Below, in pieces: positions 30,296 to 50,447 of a DNA stretch of 50,657 nt. The stretch lies in the IMG/VR virus record IMGVR_UViG_3300048033_000871, positions 1 through 50,657 of that record. The stretch is one strand, 5' to 3'. The notes under the pieces were generated by a model, which searched no databases, had not been told where the DNA came from, and saw only the letters and a program-made list of their open reading frames with translations. The DNA is from a virus. The number at the start of each line of letters is the position of its first letter. Positions within the stretch are counted from its first letter, which is position 1. The translations under genes were made by a program, and so were the position numbers.

Positions 30296-30315
30296 ATTGT
30301 TTTTCTTTTACTATA

Positions 30316-30371
30316 TAAAAGTACAAAAAAAAGGGGACTTTTCCAAGTCCCCTTTGTTAAGTTTATGTTAA
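30316..30371 (-). promoter_or_regulatory. TTAACA-box promoter driving uvsE
   Basis: On the minus strand: TTAACA (30366-30371), 5 bases, TTAACA (30355-30360), 7 bases, CTTG (30344-30347), 20 bases, TACTTTTA (30316-30323). The 20-base spacer includes the 3' arm of a terminator hairpin. Spacing is identical to five of the other six boxed promoters. Confidence 0.7.
30324..30355 (-). terminator. Intrinsic terminator, copy 1 of 3
   Basis: An 11-bp stem (AAAGGGGACTT / AAGTCCCCTTT) with a 4-base loop, followed on the minus strand by a run of T. It ends the Hsp20/65-residue operon and overlaps the uvsE promoter. Confidence 0.85.
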
Positions 30372-30560
30372 TTCTTCAAAGTTTATTGAAGGTATCTCTT
30401 CACAAAACCAATAGTATCCATCCTTTTTTAATATTGTATCTACTCCGAGATGCTCCTTCCAAGTATCAATTATAGGATTATGGTCAATACGAATCTTTCT
30501 GACCACGATGAACAACTTGTCATTAAACGTAACTTTTTCTCCTCTGAAGAATCTAAACAT
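30363..30560 (-). CDS. Small hypothetical protein
   Basis: 65 residues, basic start (MFRFFRGEKV) and likely beta-rich, with two Trp and a YYWFCEE segment. Its ATG follows the Hsp20 stop by one base, so it is coupled to it. The end of the gene overlaps the distal TTAACA box of the uvsE promoter. No family recognised. Confidence 0.7.
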   Translation of the reverse strand: MFRFFRGEKVTFNDKLFIVVRKIRIDHNPIIDTWKEHLGVDTILKKDGYYWFCEEIPSINFEELT

Positions 30561-30561
30561 C

Positions 30562-30906
30562 TTACTTAACTTTTACTTGAATCGACTTTGCTTTTCGGTC
30601 TTCATATTTTGGAATAGAGATAGTAAGTAGACCATCTTTAGCAATAGCAGTCGTTTCATTGATGTCAAATGCATCGTGAATTTTATACCTCTTATGTATT
30701 TTACGATGCTCCCGTTCTGCTTTGATTTCAAGCATTCGGTCTTCGACCAATACCTCAATGTCCTTGTTTGATAACCCAGGCACATCAAACTCCATATTTA
30801 ATACATCATCTTTTAGATATGCAGTATTAGAAGAGAGACCCGTCTCGTTACCCCACTCACCCAACATAAAGTCAGATACCAAAGTGTTAAATTGATTAAA
30901 TGTCAT
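30562..30906 (-). CDS. Small heat-shock protein (Hsp20/alpha-crystallin)
   Basis: 114 residues. The alpha-crystallin domain is visible (LNMEFDVPGLSNKDIEVLVE, then GLLTISIPK), with a C-terminal I-x-V motif (SIQVKVK) that links oligomers. It would hold unfolding proteins in solution. Hsp20 genes are frequent in marine T4-like phages. The leader shows two TTAACA copies, but spaced by 8 rather than 5 bases and without a matching -33 element. Confidence 0.9.
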   Translation of the reverse strand: MTFNQFNTLVSDFMLGEWGNETGLSSNTAYLKDDVLNMEFDVPGLSNKDIEVLVEDRMLEIKAEREHRKIHKRYKIHDAFDINETTAIAKDGLLTISIPKYEDRKAKSIQVKVK

Positions 30907-30977
30907 AATATATCCTTTATAGTGTTAAACATAATGTGTTAACAATAGAACAACATATATACCATTTGTATTTTTTA

Positions 30978-30990
30978 TGACACGTTGTCA
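30978..30990. promoter_or_regulatory. Inverted repeat upstream of Hsp20
   Basis: TGACACGTTGTCA reads as TGACA, CGT, TGTCA: a 5-bp inverted repeat about 75 bases upstream of the Hsp20 start, overlapping the stop codon of the previous gene. It could be an operator. It is short and may be chance. Confidence 0.25.
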
Positions 30991-31335
30991 GTTCATAGAG
31001 AATGGTGATGACATTCCTACATATTTGTAAAAATGTGTGTCACCCCTGACTTGTTCGGGTAGAATAATAAACCCATCCATCTTAAACATGCTTATAGTTT
31101 TCTTAATAATATCTTCACTATCACAAGTTATTAAGAGATGGGTATCGGTAATAACAACATCAACTGAAGTGGTAGATGGTTTGTCTTCGTTATAATCGAA
31201 TTCAAACTCACCCACAATCTCATCGTTATCTAGGTTAAAGAAATCATACATATACTCTAACTTAGCAATGTCACCCAAAGACATAAAGAAGTTGTATTCA
31301 GCTTCATCCCAAATCCAATCTCCATAGTCTTCCAT
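30988..31335 (-). CDS. Acidic hypothetical protein
   Basis: 115 residues, strongly acidic (EFEFDYNEDK, CDSEDIIKK) with an N-terminal run of Trp and Tyr. No catalytic motif seen. It follows the cysteine-rich peptide by 12 bases with AAGGA before the ATG. No family recognised. Confidence 0.75.
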   Translation of the reverse strand: MEDYGDWIWDEAEYNFFMSLGDIAKLEYMYDFFNLDNDEIVGEFEFDYNEDKPSTTSVDVVITDTHLLITCDSEDIIKKTISMFKMDGFIILPEQVRGDTHFYKYVGMSSPFSMN

Positions 31336-31347
31336 ATGATTCCTTAA

Positions 31348-31452
31348 TTAAGAGTTACATTCCCCATTAGCACAACAAGTACAAGGTGCTACTGAGTTTT
31401 GACATTCATCGTGAGTAGTACACGCACATTCAGTACAATTACAATTCGCCAT
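31348..31452 (-). CDS. Cysteine-rich metallothionein-like peptide
   Basis: 34 residues with nine cysteines (positions 4, 6, 9, 11, 17, 24, 26, 27, 32) and one histidine, giving CxC, CxxCxC and CxCC patterns and no aromatic residue. This is the composition of bacterial metallothioneins or other soft-metal-binding peptides. The start is well supported: AAAGGAGA precedes the ATG by 5 bases, one of the best Shine-Dalgarno sequences in the window. The binding of zinc, copper or cadmium is inference. It lies in an operon of unknown genes above Hsp20. Confidence 0.75.
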   Translation of the reverse strand: MANCNCTECACTTHDECQNSVAPCTCCANGECNS

Positions 31453-31474
31453 AATATCTCCTTTAGTATAAGTA

Positions 31475-31849
31475 TTAAGTCAAATTGTTATTTATCTCAT
31501 TTAACATAGATAAAGCATCTTTGTTTAGATATTCGCCTTCTTTAACACAATCCAAACATATCTCAATGAATGTCTTACTAAACTTATCACTTTCATCTAA
31601 CCTTAGATATAGCCCATTTAGTTTGATAACCATTTTTTCGGTGTAAGATGTCTTTGTAACATCACCCAATGGTCTATCAAATATCACAAGATGTCTGATT
31701 TTGTTTTTAGCAATGGTGAAATATGGTTCTTTCTTATCACTAAGTATTGAAGAAATCCCATCATCTAAAAAAGTCAGAAGCTCGTTTGAAAATTCTTCAT
31801 CACGAGCCTCTGCTTTTTCAAGAATTTGAGATATAATATCGATTGACAT
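31475..31849 (-). CDS. Hypothetical helical protein
   Basis: 124 residues, mixed helix and strand (IAKNKIRHLVIFD, EKMVIKLNGLYLRL). No motif recognised. The start overlaps the stop of the 101-residue gene (ATG/TAA sharing one base), so the two are coupled. Confidence 0.75.
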   Translation of the reverse strand: MSIDIISQILEKAEARDEEFSNELLTFLDDGISSILSDKKEPYFTIAKNKIRHLVIFDRPLGDVTKTSYTEKMVIKLNGLYLRLDESDKFSKTFIEICLDCVKEGEYLNKDALSMLNEINNNLT

Positions 31850-32154
31850 TACCCTTGTAATGTTCCAAGTCTATAACGCATATATGTAGTTTTGATAGCA
31901 GATTCCAATGTCTCTATAATTTTAGTCGCTTCACCTTTTGTTAATTCAACTTCCATTGGACCAATAACCAAAGAACCAATTTCCATCTTATTGGTAACTG
32001 GAAAATCATCTGCAGATAAATTATCGTTTGTAAGAAAATCAATTGATGGATATTTTTCACCAAATGATTTCTGCAACCTTGCTACTTGTGTATCGGGAAT
32101 AGCATCAATTTGATTGATTGACCCCCTACGATTGTTTTTATTAAACTTCTTCAT
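31849..32154 (-). CDS. Hypothetical protein
   Basis: 101 residues. Basic N-terminus (MKKFNKNNRRGS), then an alternating region with GSLVIGPMEVELTKGEATKI. Possibly a small nucleic-acid or virion-associated protein, but nothing decisive. The start has no clear Shine-Dalgarno. Confidence 0.7.
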   Translation of the reverse strand: MKKFNKNNRRGSINQIDAIPDTQVARLQKSFGEKYPSIDFLTNDNLSADDFPVTNKMEIGSLVIGPMEVELTKGEATKIIETLESAIKTTYMRYRLGTLQG

Positions 32155-32205
32155 AAATTATAACTTTATAGTTTCCTATAAATAGTTTTCAAGAAGTTAA
32201 TAAAA

Positions 32206-32502
32206 CTATCTTTTTCGATTTCTACGGGATACTCTATTGAATTTTTTCTCATCAAACGACATTGAAGTTCTATCGGGGTGTGTTCTATCTAAGTTTTGTT
32301 TTAATTGTATAGACCTGGATGCCCAGTACCAAGCAAGTGCAACCGAGTCTTGATTCGGTATCATAAAGTCTGACCCGATTGAACCACCTTCACCCGTTAC
32401 CACATAGTATTTACCATCACTAGCAATACGAGTTGATGCATTCGGATACTTCTTTAATACTTTTCTTTTGAATGATTTAAATTTTTTACTATCAATTGTC
32501 AT
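32206..32502 (-). CDS. Hypothetical basic protein
   Basis: 98 residues from ATG at 32500-32502. A GTG eight codons upstream also stays open, but the ATG overlaps the previous gene by only 11 bases and is preferred. The ends are very basic (KKFKSFKRKVLKKYP, RVSRRNRKR). The middle contains YYVVTGEGG and ALAWYWASRS. It may bind nucleic acid; this is only composition. Confidence 0.7.
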   Translation of the reverse strand: MTIDSKKFKSFKRKVLKKYPNASTRIASDGKYYVVTGEGGSIGSDFMIPNQDSVALAWYWASRSIQLKQNLDRTHPDRTSMSFDEKKFNRVSRRNRKR

Positions 32503-32704
32503 TTTGTAATGATTTAGTAAGACCACGATGAATAATAAAGTGAGAAAGTTCTTTATTAACTGAGACTCTATCTAAGGATTTACCATCTTCCAAACTTACC
32601 GAGTAAACCCAACCTTTTTTAATTTTAGATTTAGATGTGATGACACCCACCTTGTAGGTGCCATTCACATTAACAACTACACTTTGCCCACTAGAGTATA
32701 TCAT
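32492..32704 (-). CDS. Small KOW/SH3-like protein
   Basis: 70 residues with a beta-barrel pattern (GQSVVVNVNGTYKVGVIT, then KGWVYSVSLEDG) of the kind found in KOW or SH3 folds. Overlaps genes on both sides. Fold call is tentative. Confidence 0.65.
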   Translation of the reverse strand: MIYSSGQSVVVNVNGTYKVGVITSKSKIKKGWVYSVSLEDGKSLDRVSVNKELSHFIIHRGLTKSLQNDN

Positions 32705-32901
32705 CGGATAACCTTAATGATTTTAGTTTCTGAAACCGATGTTACTTCGTATTCCAAATTACTTCCCTCGAAATCTCCAATAACTTTTGCTTCTGCATCG
32801 GTTACCGATACCGCGTGTACAAGATACTGTTCAGTAATCTTCTTTACTCTTCCTTTGTCATCTTCGTGATGAACTTTAACTTTAGCAACGTAATAATTCA
32901 T
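32701..32901 (-). CDS. DUF4494-like small protein
   Basis: 66 residues. The pattern YYVAKVKVHHEDDKGRVKKI, then TEQYLVHAVSVTDAEAKVI, resembles DUF4494, a small family I associate mainly with Bacteroidota. If right, it supports the host inference from the promoters. Function unknown. It overlaps the next gene by 4 bases. Confidence 0.6.
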   Translation of the reverse strand: MNYYVAKVKVHHEDDKGRVKKITEQYLVHAVSVTDAEAKVIGDFEGSNLEYEVTSVSETKIIKVIR

Positions 32902-32909
32902 ATCTATTT

Positions 32910-33500
32910 TTAATTATAATTAGTATTCAACATATTAAATAGTTCGGCAGAGTCTACCAATCTATACTCTCCGTTTGGACCACCATCGTGGTAGTCTTGA
33001 TAAATAGTGTGATAGAAATTAATCATTTCATCACCATCGTGTTGTTTTCCTGCTGGGATAACAATTAATTCAAAATTGCTTCCGTGGTCTTTAAACCTAA
33101 CCACCCCACCCACATCACTCACATCATAGATGTCTTTTGAGAATTCTTTTAGTTCTTCCATATCGTTGGTGTTAATCATATTGTTTACTATCTTACCACT
33201 TTCGGTTGCTCTATACGCAAGTTCACCATCATCTCTTACAACCATTTCAAGTAAACCCATTTCGGTCAAGTTATTTAAAGCAGCATCTACTTCATACTTT
33301 CTATAGTCATCCAATGCTAGTCTCAGAAAATCAGAAAGCATATCCATATCTTGTGCGTCAAGTAAGTACTCTCGTAAGTATCCAAGAAACACTTCTTTAT
33401 TTTCTATTTCTGTAGTTTCGAAAAACTTATCTTCTATCAAAGACCTTCTTATCTTTAAGAACACCTCATCGAATTCATCGTTACTTTCCCAAATTCCCAT
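32910..33500 (-). CDS. Acidic hypothetical protein, possible winged-helix part
   Basis: 196 residues. The middle stretch (VDAALNNLTEMGLLEMVVRD, then YRATESGKIV) looks like a small winged-helix unit in which a helix is followed by a beta hairpin, so it may regulate transcription. The rest is acidic. The function is unproved. Its start lies inside the 58-residue gene upstream. Confidence 0.65.
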   Translation of the reverse strand: MGIWESNDEFDEVFLKIRRSLIEDKFFETTEIENKEVFLGYLREYLLDAQDMDMLSDFLRLALDDYRKYEVDAALNNLTEMGLLEMVVRDDGELAYRATESGKIVNNMINTNDMEELKEFSKDIYDVSDVGGVVRFKDHGSNFELIVIPAGKQHDGDEMINFYHTIYQDYHDGGPNGEYRLVDSAELFNMLNTNYN

Positions 33501-33657
33501 ATTTTTCTAATATTGTGTTGATAAAATCAATTGACTCTGAATCTCCTATGTAAGCATCGTATGGTAGATACCTTTTAGCAGTTTTCTCTAATCCATAATC
33601 GTATAGGTAATCTCTAAGAACATCTATACTAGGTAATATACATTTATTAAATCCCAT
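33481..33657 (-). CDS. Small hypothetical protein, 58 residues
   Basis: An ATG at 33655-33657 opens 58 codons to TAA at 33481. The composition is protein-like (VLRDYLYDYGLEKTAKRYLP). It overlaps the previous gene by 11 bases and the following one by 20, a tight packing typical of this stretch. No family recognised. Confidence 0.65.
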   Translation of the reverse strand: MGFNKCILPSIDVLRDYLYDYGLEKTAKRYLPYDAYIGDSESIDFINTILEKYGNLGK

Positions 33658-33937
33658 TAGTTTCTATGTCACTATTAAGCTTATCTATAACCCGTTGGTT
33701 GTTTTCCATATCACCTTCTTTGCCAATCCTTTTAGCAGATTGAAATTCATCTTCAGTTAGACTTACCCCTCTTTGGGCAGCTGCCATTGAAGCATATCGT
33801 TTTGTGTGGTACGAGCCAAGTGGTCGTGTGAATTGTTTTAGATATTGTGCTTTACTATCTAAATACTCAAGGAAGTCATCTTCACTTAGGTCAAGTAGTT
33901 GCTCTTCGCTGAGTTCGTTATTTGGGTCGTAAATCAT
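33647..33937 (-). CDS. Acidic hypothetical protein
   Basis: 96 residues, acidic at both ends (SEEQLLDLSEDDFLEYL). The middle holds GSYHTKRYASMAAAQRG. No function seen. First gene after a box-less promoter, whose TATATTTA lies only 6 bases from its ATG. Confidence 0.7.
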   Translation of the reverse strand: MIYDPNNELSEEQLLDLSEDDFLEYLDSKAQYLKQFTRPLGSYHTKRYASMAAAQRGVSLTEDEFQSAKRIGKEGDMENNQRVIDKLNSDIETNGI

Positions 33938-33942
33938 ATTGG

Positions 33943-33974
33943 TAAATATACAAAATTTTTATTAAATATCCAAA
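33943..33974 (-). promoter_or_regulatory. Putative promoter, box-less class, for the 33937 operon
   Basis: TTTG at 33971-33974, 20 bases ending in TTTTG, then TATATTTA at 33943-33950. It sits across the end of the 137-residue gene. Confidence 0.5.
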
Positions 33975-34375
33975 CCTTTTCTTCGCATTTTTTCTTGGCA
34001 GTAGAAATCATACAACTCTTCCAAGTCCATCTGCTTCGACTTCATCATCTTATCCCAAAGACAAAACCCAAACTCCTCGTGTAGTGAGTCCTTTAGTTCC
34101 TTGAGAATCTTTTGTTCATCCTTGAACCCTTCCTCATCAAGTTTAAGTGCTCTAACATTCTTCATACGAGCAGCGTATCTTGCCTGTGCATAATCTCCAG
34201 TATTCTCCATCGTTGTTTGGAAGAGGGAAGAGTACTCTTTACGAGCCCCTTCCGCTTCCGTGTAATAATGAGAATAATCAAAGTCCCCATTTTGAATCTT
34301 GTCAAACAAGTGAGCGCTTTGGGGCAAGCGTTTCTTTTTACCTTTAGTGTACCATCTGAATGGATTATATCCCAT
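33962..34375 (-). CDS. Hypothetical charged helical protein
   Basis: 137 residues, Lys-rich start (YTKGKKKRLPQ) and long charged helices. The segment ARYAARMKNVRALKLDEEGF resembles that of the 96-residue neighbour only loosely. No family recognised. tRNA-Gln lies just upstream. Confidence 0.75.
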   Translation of the reverse strand: MGYNPFRWYTKGKKKRLPQSAHLFDKIQNGDFDYSHYYTEAEGARKEYSSLFQTTMENTGDYAQARYAARMKNVRALKLDEEGFKDEQKILKELKDSLHEEFGFCLWDKMMKSKQMDLEELYDFYCQEKMRRKGLDI

Positions 34376-34390
34376 AGTTGTTTTTATTAG

Positions 34391-34461
34391 TTACCCGACT
34401 AGGATTCGAACCTAGAATGACTGGACCAAAACCAGTAGTGTTGCCATTACACCATCGGGCA
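34391..34461 (-). tRNA. tRNA-Gln (anticodon TTG)
   Basis: 71 bases. The acceptor stem TGCCCGA/TCGGGTA (one G-U) closes correctly. The anticodon arm is ACTGG-TTTTGGT-CCAGT, giving TTG at 34-36. The T arm CTAGGTTCGAATCCTAG is standard. CCA is not encoded. Confidence 0.93.
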
Positions 34462-34474
34462 TCCATTCTACTTT

Positions 34475-35776
34475 TTAGAATGGGTTAGAGATGTCTTCAG
34501 TTTCAACATTGAACAAGTCTTCATTCTCTGGTGTCTTACCCAAGAACTTTTGAATGTATTGTTTCATATAAGTTCGTTCCGAATCAGCACCCCCATCCTT
34601 ATCGAACATTGGGTAGATAGCAATCTCAGCAGACTCCTCAAGTGAGAACCCATCGTAGAGTAGAGACCCAATCTCAACCGCAGTACGAGTTGAAAGTGCA
34701 TTGGTCAATTTTGGAGACTCAGACTCAAGGTCTTCACGAGTCATCGAGGTTACCTCGGCAACTGCTTTGATGTCCTCAATAGAAACCGAAGGATACATCA
34801 TCTGAAGAAGTTGAGTTTCCTCATCACGAGTCAAAGTATCCATCTCAATCGGAATGAATCGGTCAAGGATTGCACGGTCAAGAGCACGAGTCGCAGTGTA
34901 CTCATTACCAATGTTGGCAGAAGCAATGAACGACACACCATCAGCAACTTTCACTACCGGAGCATCAGCAGCCTCATCCAATCGTAGGTATCGTTGACCT
35001 TGGTCAAGTACTGTCATTAGGATGTTGTGAGCCTCTGGGTGAGCACGTGTCAACTCATCAAGGACAACTACCGTGTTTGGAGTTGAAATTGCTTTGACAA
35101 ATGGACTGGCATTGAAGACCGTACCCTTCTTAGATTCGAACTGAGTGTTCCCAATCAAAGTGGTTCGTGGGTCTTGAGTTGCACCCAAGTTGATTACAAA
35201 GGTATTGTAACCCTCGATGGAATTAGCAGCTGCCTTGGCAGCCATTGTCTTACCACACCCAGCAGGTCCAGTCATCATAATGTTCTTACCACGAATGATG
35301 TTACGAATGAGAAGTTTCCACTTCAAAGGATTCATAAACAACATCTGAGGTTTCAGACCTTCAGATTCCTCGTGGATAAACTTGAGGACATCATCTGGCA
35401 TCTCGGCGGTAATTGGTGCCGAAGACACATTTGGAGATGAGTTGTATTCTAAAGCAAGTAACCCACCATTAGGTTTGTTAAAGTTACCAACTGGTTCTGG
35501 GTTAGACTCAAACTTATCGATAGGGACACGAGTATGACCCAACTCACCATCGGATAATCGACCCACAACACGAACTTTCCAACCCCACTTTTCGGGTTTG
35601 TTGGCAGCTGCTCTGGCTCGTTTATAAAGAGAAGAACCCTTCTCGTTAAGTTCCTCAATGAGGAAGTTGACCCCTTCAGAGTCTTGGAACATTAGGAGAT
35701 TGTCCACCTCGACAATCTTACCGAAAACTGATTTCTGTGCTTTCATACGCATCTGATTATTATTATTATCTCTCAT
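34475..35776 (-). CDS. MoxR/CobS-like AAA+ ATPase
   Basis: 433 residues. Walker A GPAGCGKT (170-177), Walker B VVVLDE (236-241), sensor-1 Asn288 in SAN, and an Arg-finger region ALDRAILDRF (298-307) are all present. The N-terminal 130 residues are family-specific. Such ATPases usually work with a VWA protein, and one is encoded two genes upstream (36202-38316). CobS annotation is common in marine T4-like phages, but cobalt chelation is unlikely without other cobalamin genes. It has its own TTAACA-box promoter. Confidence 0.88.
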   Translation of the reverse strand: MRDNNNNQMRMKAQKSVFGKIVEVDNLLMFQDSEGVNFLIEELNEKGSSLYKRARAAANKPEKWGWKVRVVGRLSDGELGHTRVPIDKFESNPEPVGNFNKPNGGLLALEYNSSPNVSSAPITAEMPDDVLKFIHEESEGLKPQMLFMNPLKWKLLIRNIIRGKNIMMTGPAGCGKTMAAKAAANSIEGYNTFVINLGATQDPRTTLIGNTQFESKKGTVFNASPFVKAISTPNTVVVLDELTRAHPEAHNILMTVLDQGQRYLRLDEAADAPVVKVADGVSFIASANIGNEYTATRALDRAILDRFIPIEMDTLTRDEETQLLQMMYPSVSIEDIKAVAEVTSMTREDLESESPKLTNALSTRTAVEIGSLLYDGFSLEESAEIAIYPMFDKDGGADSERTYMKQYIQKFLGKTPENEDLFNVETEDISNPF

Positions 35777-35785
35777 TATTACTAT

Positions 35786-35841
35786 GTAAATATCGTGAAT
35801 CTTTTCGTGATTTCCAAACTTTTAATGTTAAGAAATTGTTA
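35786..35841 (-). promoter_or_regulatory. TTAACA-box promoter driving the MoxR ATPase
   Basis: TTAACA (35836-35841), 5 bases, TTAACA (35825-35830), 7 bases, TTTG (35814-35817), 20 bases, GATATTTA (35786-35793; first base differs from consensus). The distal box codes for the last residues (LTIS and stop) of the previous gene. Confidence 0.65.
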
Positions 35842-36130
35842 AGGTTTCAACCCTTGTAATTATTATATTAATGTCCATTCGAGTCTGCCAACCAACAACA
35901 TCATCATTGATGTTAGGTACGACCTCTTGTGTAACGAAGTCCCCATTAGGACTAAACACGGCTACCTCAAATGATTCAAAGTCTTCGGGTGATGACAAGT
36001 TCTTACGAGGGGAACTGTACATACCTTCACCTGCAACGACACTTAATAGGTGTCCATTGACCTTTAAACTACCTTGAATACCAAATCCTTGGCGATGTGG
36101 TTTAAACACTATATCTTTGAAGTTTTTCAT
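35828..36130 (-). CDS. Hypothetical protein between MoxR and VWA genes
   Basis: 100 residues, beta-rich (GFGIQGSLKVNGHLLSVVAG). No motif recognised. Its own TTAACA-box promoter lies upstream, and its last codons form part of the promoter of the next gene. The position suggests a partner of the MoxR/VWA pair. Confidence 0.8.
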   Translation of the reverse strand: MKNFKDIVFKPHRQGFGIQGSLKVNGHLLSVVAGEGMYSSPRKNLSSPEDFESFEVAVFSPNGDFVTQEVVPNINDDVVGWQTRMDINIIITRVETLTIS

Positions 36131-36149
36131 ATCTCTCTCTTTTACTTTG

Positions 36150-36205
36150 TAAATATAATCAAAAAAGGGGACTTTACCAAGTCCCCTTTGTTAAGTTTAT
36201 GTTAA
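36150..36205 (-). promoter_or_regulatory. TTAACA-box promoter for the 100-residue gene
   Basis: TTAACA (36200-36205), 5 bases, TTAACA (36189-36194), 7 bases, CTTG (36178-36181), 20 bases, TATATTTA (36150-36157). The spacer contains a terminator hairpin arm. Confidence 0.7.
36161..36189 (-). terminator. Intrinsic terminator, copy 2 of 3
   Basis: 11-bp stem AAAGGGGACTT / AAGTCCCCTTT, loop of 4, then six T on the minus strand. It ends the VWA gene and overlaps the next promoter. Confidence 0.85.
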
Positions 36206-38316
36206 ACATTCATCTCAAACTTTTTGTTCAAGGTCTTTGCCAATTGATTCATATTGGTAGTATCAATGAACTCAGAATCCTTACCATACATCTCTTTAAA
36301 CATATCACCACTTGCCTCGTATGCGTAGTCAGACACGAAGTAAGATAGGACATTCACACCTGCCTTCTTAATCTTCTTAACTTGCTCGGCAGTGTGTTTA
36401 CGAGCAGCAGTACCACCATAAGAGATTTGTGAGTTATCGAACCCAGGCCATCCATCTGAGAAGTTAATTAGGTAAGTCTCAACACCATTGGTGGTTTTGG
36501 TGATTTCCTTGAGAACTGCTTCGTAACATAGACCCTCTGGTGTAGTACCATCGGAATGAATGTAAGGGAAGAGTTGTTGAATCTTAGAGAACTTATCCTT
36601 ACGACTATCGTAAGCAATCAACATTAGTGGTTGAACATTGTTCCAATTGCCAGGTGAGTAGTAGACACCTCGGTAGGAAATCACCACATCAATGTTTTGA
36701 GTCATCGAAGCAGCTTTAGCAATGGCAACTGCAGCAGTCTGAGTTGAGTTCCACTTGTCACCATTCATCGAAGAACTTGCATCGATTGAGATGTGAAGTA
36801 CAACTGGTGTTGCTTTATTGACCAAGGTTTGTTCGAAGATGTCGAAGTTACCAAACCCAATTTCGTGAATCATACGACCACTTAATTTACCACTCTTCAT
36901 TCGTGGTGTTGAGGTCACTCGTTCCTCATTACGAGTCTTGAGTTTCTTACCAAGTAGTGTACCCAATTGAGTACCCTTCTTAATGTTTTTAGTCATCTTC
37001 TCAAAATTCCAAGTAGAAGTGGTCAACATACCAATCATATTGGACTCACATAGACCCTTGGTTAGATTGTTGATGATGTAGGTCTGAACTCCATTAGAAC
37101 CAGTAGACCAACTACTTTTGTTGAATCCCTTACCAACAACCTCAGACTTGATATCTGCTTTGTCGAGTTGGTCAATCTTGTTTTTGTCAGACTTAGAAAC
37201 TTTCTTCTTCTTAACATCACCATCCATAAACTCTTCCTGTTTCTTGATAGCATTGTCTAACATCTTCTTTTGTCGGTCCGATAGTGGTGTATACTCACCA
37301 CCTGCCCCTTGAGGATTACCCTCACCACTTGGTTGACCACTTTGGGTGGTAGTATCATTGGACTCTTGACCCTCATTAGAGTCACTTTCTGAAGTCTCAC
37401 CTTTACCTTGAGAAGACATACCACCACCACTTTGTTGGTTGTTAGTATCTCCAGTCATTGGTGAGTTACCATTTTGGTCACCACCTTCAGAACCTTCTCC
37501 TTCACCATCACCCGATGATGATTGGTCACTACTATTAGAGACTTCAATATTCTTTTCTATAATCATAAGGAGTTGACCTGCCACCTCAAGTGAATCCCAA
37601 GAAGACTTGAGTCGAGAGATGTTACCAAGGTCAAGAACATTCCAAATCTCACGAAGACCTTTGAGAGCATCAAGGTCACGATTCTCATTGGTGATGTTGA
37701 TGATACGGAACATATAAGACTCCCAATCTTCAGTACGTTTCTCACCACTCTGAAGACCTTTGTTAATCACATTTGAGTGGAAGTACTTATCGTACATTGA
37801 CTCGTAGTAACCACGATACCCAGGGGCAGTGGTGTAAATGTGGTTATCAATTCTTCGGTCTTCAACATAGTTGAGTAGTGACTTGAGGTTGTTTGACAAG
37901 TGACCTTGTAACTGCCAATCTTCAGTATAACCATACTTATTCATCAACCATTGTGCGTCAATCGTAGATGGTAACTCACCACCACGAAGTGAGGTCAGAG
38001 TATTGAAATCGGTCAAAGCAATGTGAGACCCTTCGTGGAGAGCAAGACCAACAACTGGGTCAAACTCTTTGTCATCTAACTTGGCAGAAATCACAACCTC
38101 TTTACCATCGGTATAAGAATCTTCCCCACGACCATCGAAGGTCACTGGGATGTTCTGACCAGTTACAATATTAACGAAGTTACGAATACTTCTTTTATAA
38201 GCCATCAACTTCATAAGGTCGTTTGACTTCTTCTCTACTGAGGTCAACTCATTAGACTCATCTTCAAAGATTGAAGAGTCGAGCCAGAACGAGGAATAAT
38301 TCATTTGTTTACTCAT
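36202..38316 (-). CDS. Metallopeptidase-like / VWA-domain protein (CobT-like partner of MoxR)
   Basis: 704 residues. Residues 30-160 look like a zinc metallopeptidase relative: HEGSH (94-98, an HExxH motif) and a downstream EDRRID (152-157) that may give the third ligand. Residues 255-345 are a disordered Gly/Ser/Glu/Gln linker. Residues 505-700 are a von Willebrand A domain with a MIDAS: DASSS (512-516), DGTTPEG (589-595) and SDGWPG (620-625). CobT-type proteins share the linker and VWA layout. The MoxR ATPase nearby suggests a phage protein-remodelling complex. Confidence 0.85.
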   Translation of the reverse strand: MSKQMNYSSFWLDSSIFEDESNELTSVEKKSNDLMKLMAYKRSIRNFVNIVTGQNIPVTFDGRGEDSYTDGKEVVISAKLDDKEFDPVVGLALHEGSHIALTDFNTLTSLRGGELPSTIDAQWLMNKYGYTEDWQLQGHLSNNLKSLLNYVEDRRIDNHIYTTAPGYRGYYESMYDKYFHSNVINKGLQSGEKRTEDWESYMFRIINITNENRDLDALKGLREIWNVLDLGNISRLKSSWDSLEVAGQLLMIIEKNIEVSNSSDQSSSGDGEGEGSEGGDQNGNSPMTGDTNNQQSGGGMSSQGKGETSESDSNEGQESNDTTTQSGQPSGEGNPQGAGGEYTPLSDRQKKMLDNAIKKQEEFMDGDVKKKKVSKSDKNKIDQLDKADIKSEVVGKGFNKSSWSTGSNGVQTYIINNLTKGLCESNMIGMLTTSTWNFEKMTKNIKKGTQLGTLLGKKLKTRNEERVTSTPRMKSGKLSGRMIHEIGFGNFDIFEQTLVNKATPVVLHISIDASSSMNGDKWNSTQTAAVAIAKAASMTQNIDVVISYRGVYYSPGNWNNVQPLMLIAYDSRKDKFSKIQQLFPYIHSDGTTPEGLCYEAVLKEITKTTNGVETYLINFSDGWPGFDNSQISYGGTAARKHTAEQVKKIKKAGVNVLSYFVSDYAYEASGDMFKEMYGKDSEFIDTTNMNQLAKTLNKKFEMNV

Positions 38317-38343
38317 AATATAACTATCTCAATGATTACAATA

Positions 38344-38399
38344 TAAATGTAGTGAAAATAATCGACTTAAACAAGTTTCCAATGTTAAGAAATTGTTAA
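38344..38399 (-). promoter_or_regulatory. TTAACA-box promoter driving the VWA protein
   Basis: TTAACA (38394-38399), 5 bases, TTAACA (38383-38388), 7 bases, CTTG (38372-38375), 20 bases, TACATTTA (38344-38351). The distal box codes for LTIS and the stop of the previous gene. Confidence 0.7.
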
Positions 38400-38552
38400 A
38401 TCTTTTTTATGTTTCTCTTTACGAGAATACGTTTTTTTAGACTTATGGGTCTTTTGGGTGGTCTTTTTACCAATATGGTGAGTTGCTTCACCACGAGACC
38501 AACCCCCATTGAAGTCTAACTCTTCTTGATATGTCTTACCTTTCTTTCCCAT
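38385..38552 (-). CDS. Small basic protein
   Basis: 55 residues from ATG at 38550-38552. A longer frame from a TTG is possible but would read through a terminator hairpin, so I reject it. The second half is a Lys-rich tail (KKTTQKTHKSKKTYSRKEKH), which suggests nucleic-acid binding. Its own TTAACA-box promoter precedes it. Confidence 0.7.
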   Translation of the reverse strand: MGKKGKTYQEELDFNGGWSRGEATHHIGKKTTQKTHKSKKTYSRKEKHKKDLTIS

Positions 38553-38563
38553 AATGATACATA

Positions 38564-38619
38564 TAAATGTAATAAAAAAAGGGGACTTTACCAAGCCCCC
38601 TTTGTTAAGAAATTGTTAA
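38564..38619 (-). promoter_or_regulatory. TTAACA-box promoter for the small basic protein
   Basis: TTAACA (38614-38619), 5 bases, TTAACA (38603-38608), 7 bases, CTTG (38592-38595), 20 bases, TACATTTA (38564-38571). The spacer contains a terminator hairpin arm. Confidence 0.7.
38574..38603 (-). terminator. Intrinsic terminator, copy 3 of 3
   Basis: Same hairpin as the copies near 30340 and 36175, with one G-U pair in the RNA, then a run of T. It ends the exported-protein operon. Confidence 0.85.
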
Positions 38620-50391: not shown

Positions 50392-50447
50392 TAAATGTAA
50401 GGAGAAAAGTCGGGATATCCAAATATAGTATGTTAAATAAATGTTAA
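50392..50447 (-). promoter_or_regulatory. TTAACA-box promoter for the 50363 operon
   Basis: TTAACA (50442-50447), 5 bases, TTAACA (50431-50436), 7 bases, TTTG (50420-50423), 20 bases, TACATTTA (50392-50399). Confidence 0.7.

Follow-up and report, generated by a model that had tools for sequence, protein, structure and literature searches.

Three short blocks in this phage genome carry an intrinsic terminator and a Bacteroidota-type promoter on the same bases. Judging from stem covariation together with a fixed 20-base promoter register, which link the two functions to selection, both the terminator and the promoter reading are under selection. We propose that each block is probably a compact, insulated operon boundary whose promoter would be under Pho control. 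Dozens of related viruses share the design, which is nearly absent from the host DNA that we examined.

Anatomy of the merged blocks

The window is a virus record of 50,657 bases whose genes lie on the minus strand, which is referred to below as the coding strand. Merged blocks were present on this strand at 30316-30371, 36150-36205, and 38564-38619, where the initial annotation had placed them, and its description of a single block of about 55 bp that combines a terminator, two regulator boxes, and a promoter was borne out by the anatomy of all three sites. The common layout is TTAAC-N6-TTAAC, eight bases, CTTG, 20 bases, and TAnnTTTA. The hairpin, AAAGGGGRCTT-GGWA-AAGTCCCCTTT, has an 11-bp stem and a 4-nt loop, and its 5' end adjoins the second box. 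The CTT of the -33 element forms the end of the 5' arm and the G is the first loop base, while the T run stops 1-3 nt before the -7 element; hairpin and T run therefore overlie the -33 element and the spacer of the promoter. At all three sites a stable, GC-rich RNA hairpin precedes a T run, on the coding strand only, and a terminator scan detected no other intrinsic terminators on this strand of the window. The blocks sit at gene boundaries, with upstream stop codons that either overlap the box or lie right beside it, followed within tens of bases by the next ATG. Transcription starts were predicted near 30311, 36145, and 38559 from the placement of the -7 box at -12 to -5 in Flavobacterium psychrophilum, where its consensus is TAnnTTTG (PMC9723704). 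The features of the three blocks, all on the minus strand, are as follows.

30354..30371, minus: site 1 Pho-type box TTAACATAAACTTAACAA (sequence match; box identity from the Bacteroidota genome comparison)
30330..30355, minus: site 1 terminator hairpin, 11-bp stem, GGAA loop, T run to 30325 (folding -18.7 kcal/mol, z -4.0)
30344..30347, minus: site 1 -33 element CTTG, with CTT closing the 5' arm and G opening the loop (promoter pattern; loop G invariant in 24/24 aligned sites)
30316..30323, minus: site 1 -7 element TACTTTTA, predicted start ~30311 (-7 box placed at -12 to -5 as in PMC9723704)
29390..30295, minus: gene for UV endonuclease UvdE (PF03851, E 1.9e-60), downstream of the site 1 promoter
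36188..36205, minus: site 2 Pho-type box TTAACATAAACTTAACAA (promoter pattern)
36164..36189, minus: site 2 terminator hairpin, GGUA loop, T run to 36161 (folding -19.5 kcal/mol, z -4.1)
36178..36181, minus: site 2 -33 element CTTG (promoter pattern)
36150..36157, minus: site 2 -7 element TATATTTA, predicted start ~36145 (promoter pattern)
38602..38619, minus: site 3 Pho-type box TTAACAATTTCTTAACAA (promoter pattern)
38578..38603, minus: site 3 terminator hairpin with one G.U pair, T run to 38574 (folding -16.8 kcal/mol, z -3.2)
38592..38595, minus: site 3 -33 element CTTG (promoter pattern)
38564..38571, minus: site 3 -7 element TACATTTA, predicted start ~38559, ATG of a 55-aa gene at ~38552 (promoter pattern)

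These blocks belong to a set of six boxed promoters of one architecture on the minus strand of the window (TTAAC-N6-TTAAC, 8 bases, YTTG, 20 bases, TAnnTTTA), three with the hairpin and three without; in one of the six, the -7 element is GATATTTA. Folding of the hairpin-free promoters was no better than that of shuffles for two and only weakly better for the third. These three, with 5' box ends at 50447, 38399, and 35842, are not mentioned in the initial annotation.

50392..50447, minus: boxed promoter without hairpin (folding z 0.05)
38344..38399, minus: boxed promoter without terminator, weak fold only, predicted to drive a 704-aa gene (-8.8 kcal/mol, z -2.3)
35787..35842, minus: boxed promoter without hairpin, predicted to drive a gene for a 433-aa CobS-like AAA ATPase (promoter pattern, folding)

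Conservation of the terminator and promoter readings

Alignment of homologous sites, which the initial annotation had suggested as a check for compensatory stem changes and a conserved CTTG, gave a positive result on both counts. The merged element upstream of uvdE was found in about 32 of 45 distinct loci of relatives. Among 24 aligned sites (21 from uvdE relatives and the three in the window), which share a first stem geometry, 99.1% of stem cells were paired and two-sided changes occurred at six of nine pairs. This covariation was equalled by none of 500 shuffles and was lost when the partner strand was slid. The G of the -33 element, as the opening base of the loop, was the same in all 24 sites, while the remaining loop bases vary; the stem does not need this G, yet it is invariant. 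One stem pair was G.U in 19 of the 24 sequences. Such a pair is acceptable in RNA and is a mismatch in DNA, so its frequency indicates an RNA hairpin and argues against the DNA melting that had been invoked to couple the two functions.

In a second geometry, found in other viruses, the 5' arm contains all of YTTGG, whose pairing partner is CCAAR in the spacer. Here 97.1% of cells were paired, 22 cells showed two-sided changes, and 34 G.U pairs were counted vs 1 A.C. Covariation extends to the -33 element itself, whose first base changes together with its partner in the spacer (C-G, U-A, U.G). The promoter reading was assessed separately with a search anchored on box and terminator, in which a promoter was not a requirement: 68 of the 73 terminators recovered carried YTTG-N20-TAnnTT, with a spacing of exactly 20 in 68/68, and at least four of the other five had this layout too, with GTTG in place of YTTG or with a variant -7 element. 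The sites thus show the -33 TTG and -7 TAnnTTT at fixed spacing of a Bacteroidota sigma-A promoter as well as a hairpin conserved by compensatory change. The terminator is optional. At the 55-aa gene of site 3, box and promoter were kept in five of five relatives and the hairpin was present in two of five, and orthologous sites that no longer form the hairpin still keep the promoter.

Recurrence and controls

The promoter pattern had 56 matches in 14 related records (~2.4 Mb) and the reversed pattern had none. Among 233 boxed promoters, 61 had a hairpin and T run, compared with 2.3 on average and at most 7 over 200 rounds of a shuffle that exchanged columns between promoters; the hairpin was absent from the other 172. 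Starting instead from terminators, 93 of 257 distinct ones in the fetched viral contigs had a -33/-7 promoter within -30 to 150 bases, a frequency that is indicative only, as these contigs were picked for promoters or neighbouring genes. The end of the T run fell -1 to 3 nt before the -7 element in 72 of the 93, none fell at 4-24 nt, and the others were farther away. In 0.96 Mb of cellular, mostly Bacteroidota, DNA, one of 168 terminators was merged with a promoter; this DNA had been retrieved for other purposes and does not amount to random sampling, so that this frequency is likewise indicative only. Merged elements were also seen on box-free promoters. Chance overlap was rejected on the basis of the column shuffles, the reversed patterns, and the empty 4-24 nt gap. 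One recent three-copy duplication was rejected as a full account, given the two stem geometries and many stem sequences in other viruses. A third stem axis (sum 56) was set aside as mostly a by-product of stem types A and B, or AT-rich false positives.

The uncultured viruses that share this design appear to be large, T4-like, and to infect Bacteroidota. A T4-type portal was found in five of eight records; no DNA match to a named phage was found among 50,697 phage records, and protein matches were remote only.

Identity of the boxes

The regulator boxes, to which the initial annotation gave no name, match the Bacteroidota Pho box. When the phage promoter pattern was compared with bacterial and archaeal genomes (one per species), the Bacteroidota matches included two phosphate transporters preceded by almost the phage box. 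The sequence TTAACATNAACTTAACAT occurred at 11 places in 296 Bacteroidota genomes and its reversed pattern at none. Five of the genes downstream encode PhoU_div (DUF47) proteins, of which Pfam confirmed one, while the other four look alike by eye. Three more encode a Na/Pi cotransporter (Na_Pi_cotrans), an alkaline phosphatase, and a protein resembling Porin_O_P that fell slightly short of the Pfam threshold, and the remaining three were other or unclear. The commonest phage box, TTAACAATTTCTTAACAT, occurred at 19 places in 292 Bacteroidota genomes, again with no match for the reversed pattern, and a control with 12-base spacing and four times the variants gave two places. Eight of the 19 precede genes for PHO4 (2), PstS, a phosphonate-binding protein, Porin_O_P (3), and a PstC-like ABC permease; about 10-11 of the 19 were not clearly phosphate genes or had no clear gene. 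From these matches, the near-zero controls, and the phosphate genes downstream, we identify the phage box with good confidence as the Bacteroidota Pho box, an 11-bp direct repeat identical to the boxes before phosphate genes of the host phylum. It is near-perfect and is present on roughly 4-30 promoters per phage genome. A published Pho box for the phylum was not found in the literature searched, although F. johnsoniae has a PhoBR-linked phosphate regulon (PMC8115612).

The position of the box differs between phage and host. Host boxes typically end about 8 bases before the -7 element and, in most host Pho promoters inspected, replace the -33 element. The phage box starts 48 bases before -7 vs about 26 in most of these host promoters, a difference of 22 bases that corresponds to two 11-bp repeats further upstream, so PhoB would act on the phage promoters from a different position.

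A profile search for PF00486 and PF00072 found neither in the window or in seven large relatives (8 records). A phage-encoded PhoB relative was rejected on this basis, and, with no PhoB-type regulator recognisable in the phages, host PhoB is the likely reader of the boxes. We consider it unlikely, though worth weighing, that a phage activator of different or unknown fold mimics PhoB specificity and reads the boxes in the manner of MotA at T4 middle promoters. T4-like phages commonly bring their own activators, a T4-type portal occurs in five of the eight records, and the box position is unlike that of most host Pho promoters. Against this, phage and host boxes are identical in sequence, none of the eight phage records has a response-regulator or OmpR/PhoB domain, and cyanophages are known to use host PhoB (PMC10976474).

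Proposed function of the merged blocks

We infer termination, initiation, PhoB binding, and an insulating role at these blocks from their sequences. RNA polymerase arriving from the upstream operon would transcribe the GC hairpin and come to a halt in the T run, some 13-18 bases short of the next predicted start. As DNA, the same bases would offer host sigma-A holoenzyme the -33 element and 20-bp spacer of the next promoter, and the Pho box just upstream (repeats at ~-60 and -49) would most likely be bound by host PhoB, which would activate that promoter. By blocking read-through from upstream, the hairpin would leave the downstream genes reliant on their own Pho-controlled promoter, and this insulation would be gained at almost no cost in length. 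The overlap would also mean that terminating and initiating polymerases exclude each other. As 172 of 233 boxed promoters have no hairpin, insulation is not a general property of these promoters.

The initial annotation had gone further and suggested that melting or the binding of an activator could link termination with initiation. This proposal found no support, as the sequences do not require coupling and the hairpin is gained and lost on a conserved promoter (as in the relatives of site 3) and occurs on box-free promoters as well. In its fuller form, polymerase stopped in the T run would be released onto the next promoter and restart there, so that upstream transcription feeds the downstream operon; conversely, a loaded promoter or bound activator would block the incoming polymerase. 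In E. coli, the polymerase usually remains on the DNA once it has stopped at an intrinsic terminator and then reinitiates at promoters close by, with 37-55% downstream reinitiation in one assay (PMC6978380, PMC6978322), and proximity of terminator and promoter has been proposed to favour reinitiation (PMC11347151). Stop and start are only ~15 bp apart here, which makes steric overlap of the two complexes unavoidable. Economy explains the close spacing equally well, however, and the reinitiation evidence comes from E. coli polymerase, not that of Bacteroidota; together with the coming and going of hairpins on a conserved promoter, this leaves coupling of either kind doubtful. More tentative still is the extension, plausible in view of the E. 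coli results, that the terminating polymerase might be handed directly to the Pho-activated promoter beneath it, the stop of one operon priming the next under the phosphate state of the host.

Far less probable is that the dyad is a DNA signal, either the operator of a regulator or, as in phage N4, a cruciform promoter, and not a terminator. Its precise overlap with the promoter and the adjoining boxes would fit such a signal. The T run, though, invariably follows the stem in the direction of transcription, pairing is kept while the stem sequence changes, two stem registers share one promoter spacing, and the second geometry has its strong excess of G.U over A.C pairs; the G.U pairs and constant T run disfavour cruciform and operator alike. 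Intrinsic terminators do consist of a GC hairpin and T run, and T-rich followed by TA-rich DNA is common, so promoter-like bases could in principle arise as a by-product of a functional terminator, but this is highly improbable given the invariant spacing of 20, the invariant loop G, the box upstream, and the hairpin-less orthologous sites that keep the promoter.

Comparison with known systems

The individual parts of the insulated boundary proposed here are known, namely the intrinsic terminator, the Bacteroidota sigma-A promoter, and the Pho box. In the literature searched, we found no description of these parts fused on shared bases with a fixed register and two independent geometries, nor of Pho boxes spread over roughly 4-30 promoters in T4-like phages. 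No natural overlapping terminator-promoters in phages were found in a full-text search of open-access journal papers. The blocks constitute a recurrent natural design in which covariation indicates that both readings are kept, and they provide a natural template for testing RNA polymerase recycling from stop to start. They also suggest that large Bacteroidota phages put many genes under an apparent host phosphate-starvation regulator, as previously known mainly from cyanophages; if this control is true, phosphate status would be a condition of infection in a major bacterial phylum of marine and fresh waters.

The hairpin promoter of phage N4 is a short DNA hairpin read by the virion polymerase, for which a T run is unneeded and pairing is equal on both strands. 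The merged elements differ in their constant T run and G.U bias. They resemble Rho-independent terminators in their GC stem, short loop, T run, coding-strand orientation, and pairing kept by covariation, except that stem, loop, and T run also serve the following promoter as its -33 element and spacer. Compared with the Bacteroidota primary sigma promoter (-33 TTTG, -7 TAnnTTTG), the phage promoters share the -33 (YTTG), N20, and -7 TAnnTTT, whereas their last -7 base is mostly A, the spacer is a terminator, and the -33 is part of the stem in a quarter of boxed promoters. Engineered yeast bifunctional elements also unite terminator and promoter in one element but are synthetic and eukaryotic (PMC10298055). 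T4 middle promoters likewise combine, in a T4-like phage, a promoter for host sigma with an activator box beside its -33/-35 region, whereas the box here differs by eye from the MotA box, matches the Pho box in sequence, and has a terminator fused in. The closest regulatory parallels are the Pho-box promoters of the hosts, with identical 11-bp direct repeats before Bacteroidota phosphate genes, and cyanophage genes under host PhoBR, such as the core genes of S-PM2, including DNA polymerase, that bind host PhoB (PMC10976474). The cyanophage system belongs to another host phylum, and the phage boxes described here differ from both in being near-perfect, placed one further repeat pair upstream, and fused with terminators.

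Genes and repeats of the window

Two adjacent genes of the window, encoding a CobS-like AAA ATPase and a 704-aa protein, each lie behind their own predicted boxed promoter, that is, a promoter with an upstream Pho-type box. The ATPase belongs to phrog_249, which is annotated as 'porphyrin biosynthesis'. Two repeat families were also found, and the box-less TTTGG...TTTTGTATATTGTAATAA repeats probably represent an early promoter class.

34475-38316, minus strand: adjacent genes for the CobS-like AAA ATPase and the 704-aa protein
9063, 9808, 28097, 33944, 42949, 47837 and 49417, minus strand: second promoter-like repeat family, box-less, TTTGG...TTTTGTATATTGTAATAA
46951-47845, minus strand: leader-like repeat TTTAACACCAAAGAGAGATGA, five copies, directly 5' of start codons

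Further merged elements

Merged elements, in which an intrinsic terminator overlies the -33 element and spacer of a promoter, were also noted at several sites in related viral records (G numbers) and fetched loci (L numbers). At the two sites with GTTG in place of YTTG, the altered base is offset by a C in the 3' arm.

G006 60522; G014 60557 and 185053; G008 43901; L108 4856: merged elements without a Pho-type box
G008 128269; L197 4794: merged elements with GTTG and TATCTTAG as the -7 element
L325 3437-3500: single merged element adjoining a phage-type boxed promoter, on a Paludibacteraceae genome contig

This last contig could represent a prophage or a fragment of a phage. In many Flavobacterium genomes (L304, L306, L318 and other loci), a parA-like gene is preceded by a TTAACCCATTGTTAAC box, which is conserved and accompanied by CTTG and a -7 element.

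Late-promoter-like motif

The motif TATTTATA was enriched on the coding strand in the window and in the 14 related viral records, G001-G014 (in G007, for example, 31 versus 4). The motif or a close variant lay within 60 bases downstream of 42 of the 184 box-less terminators, compared with about 1% of random stretches. TATTTATA resembles the late promoter of T4.
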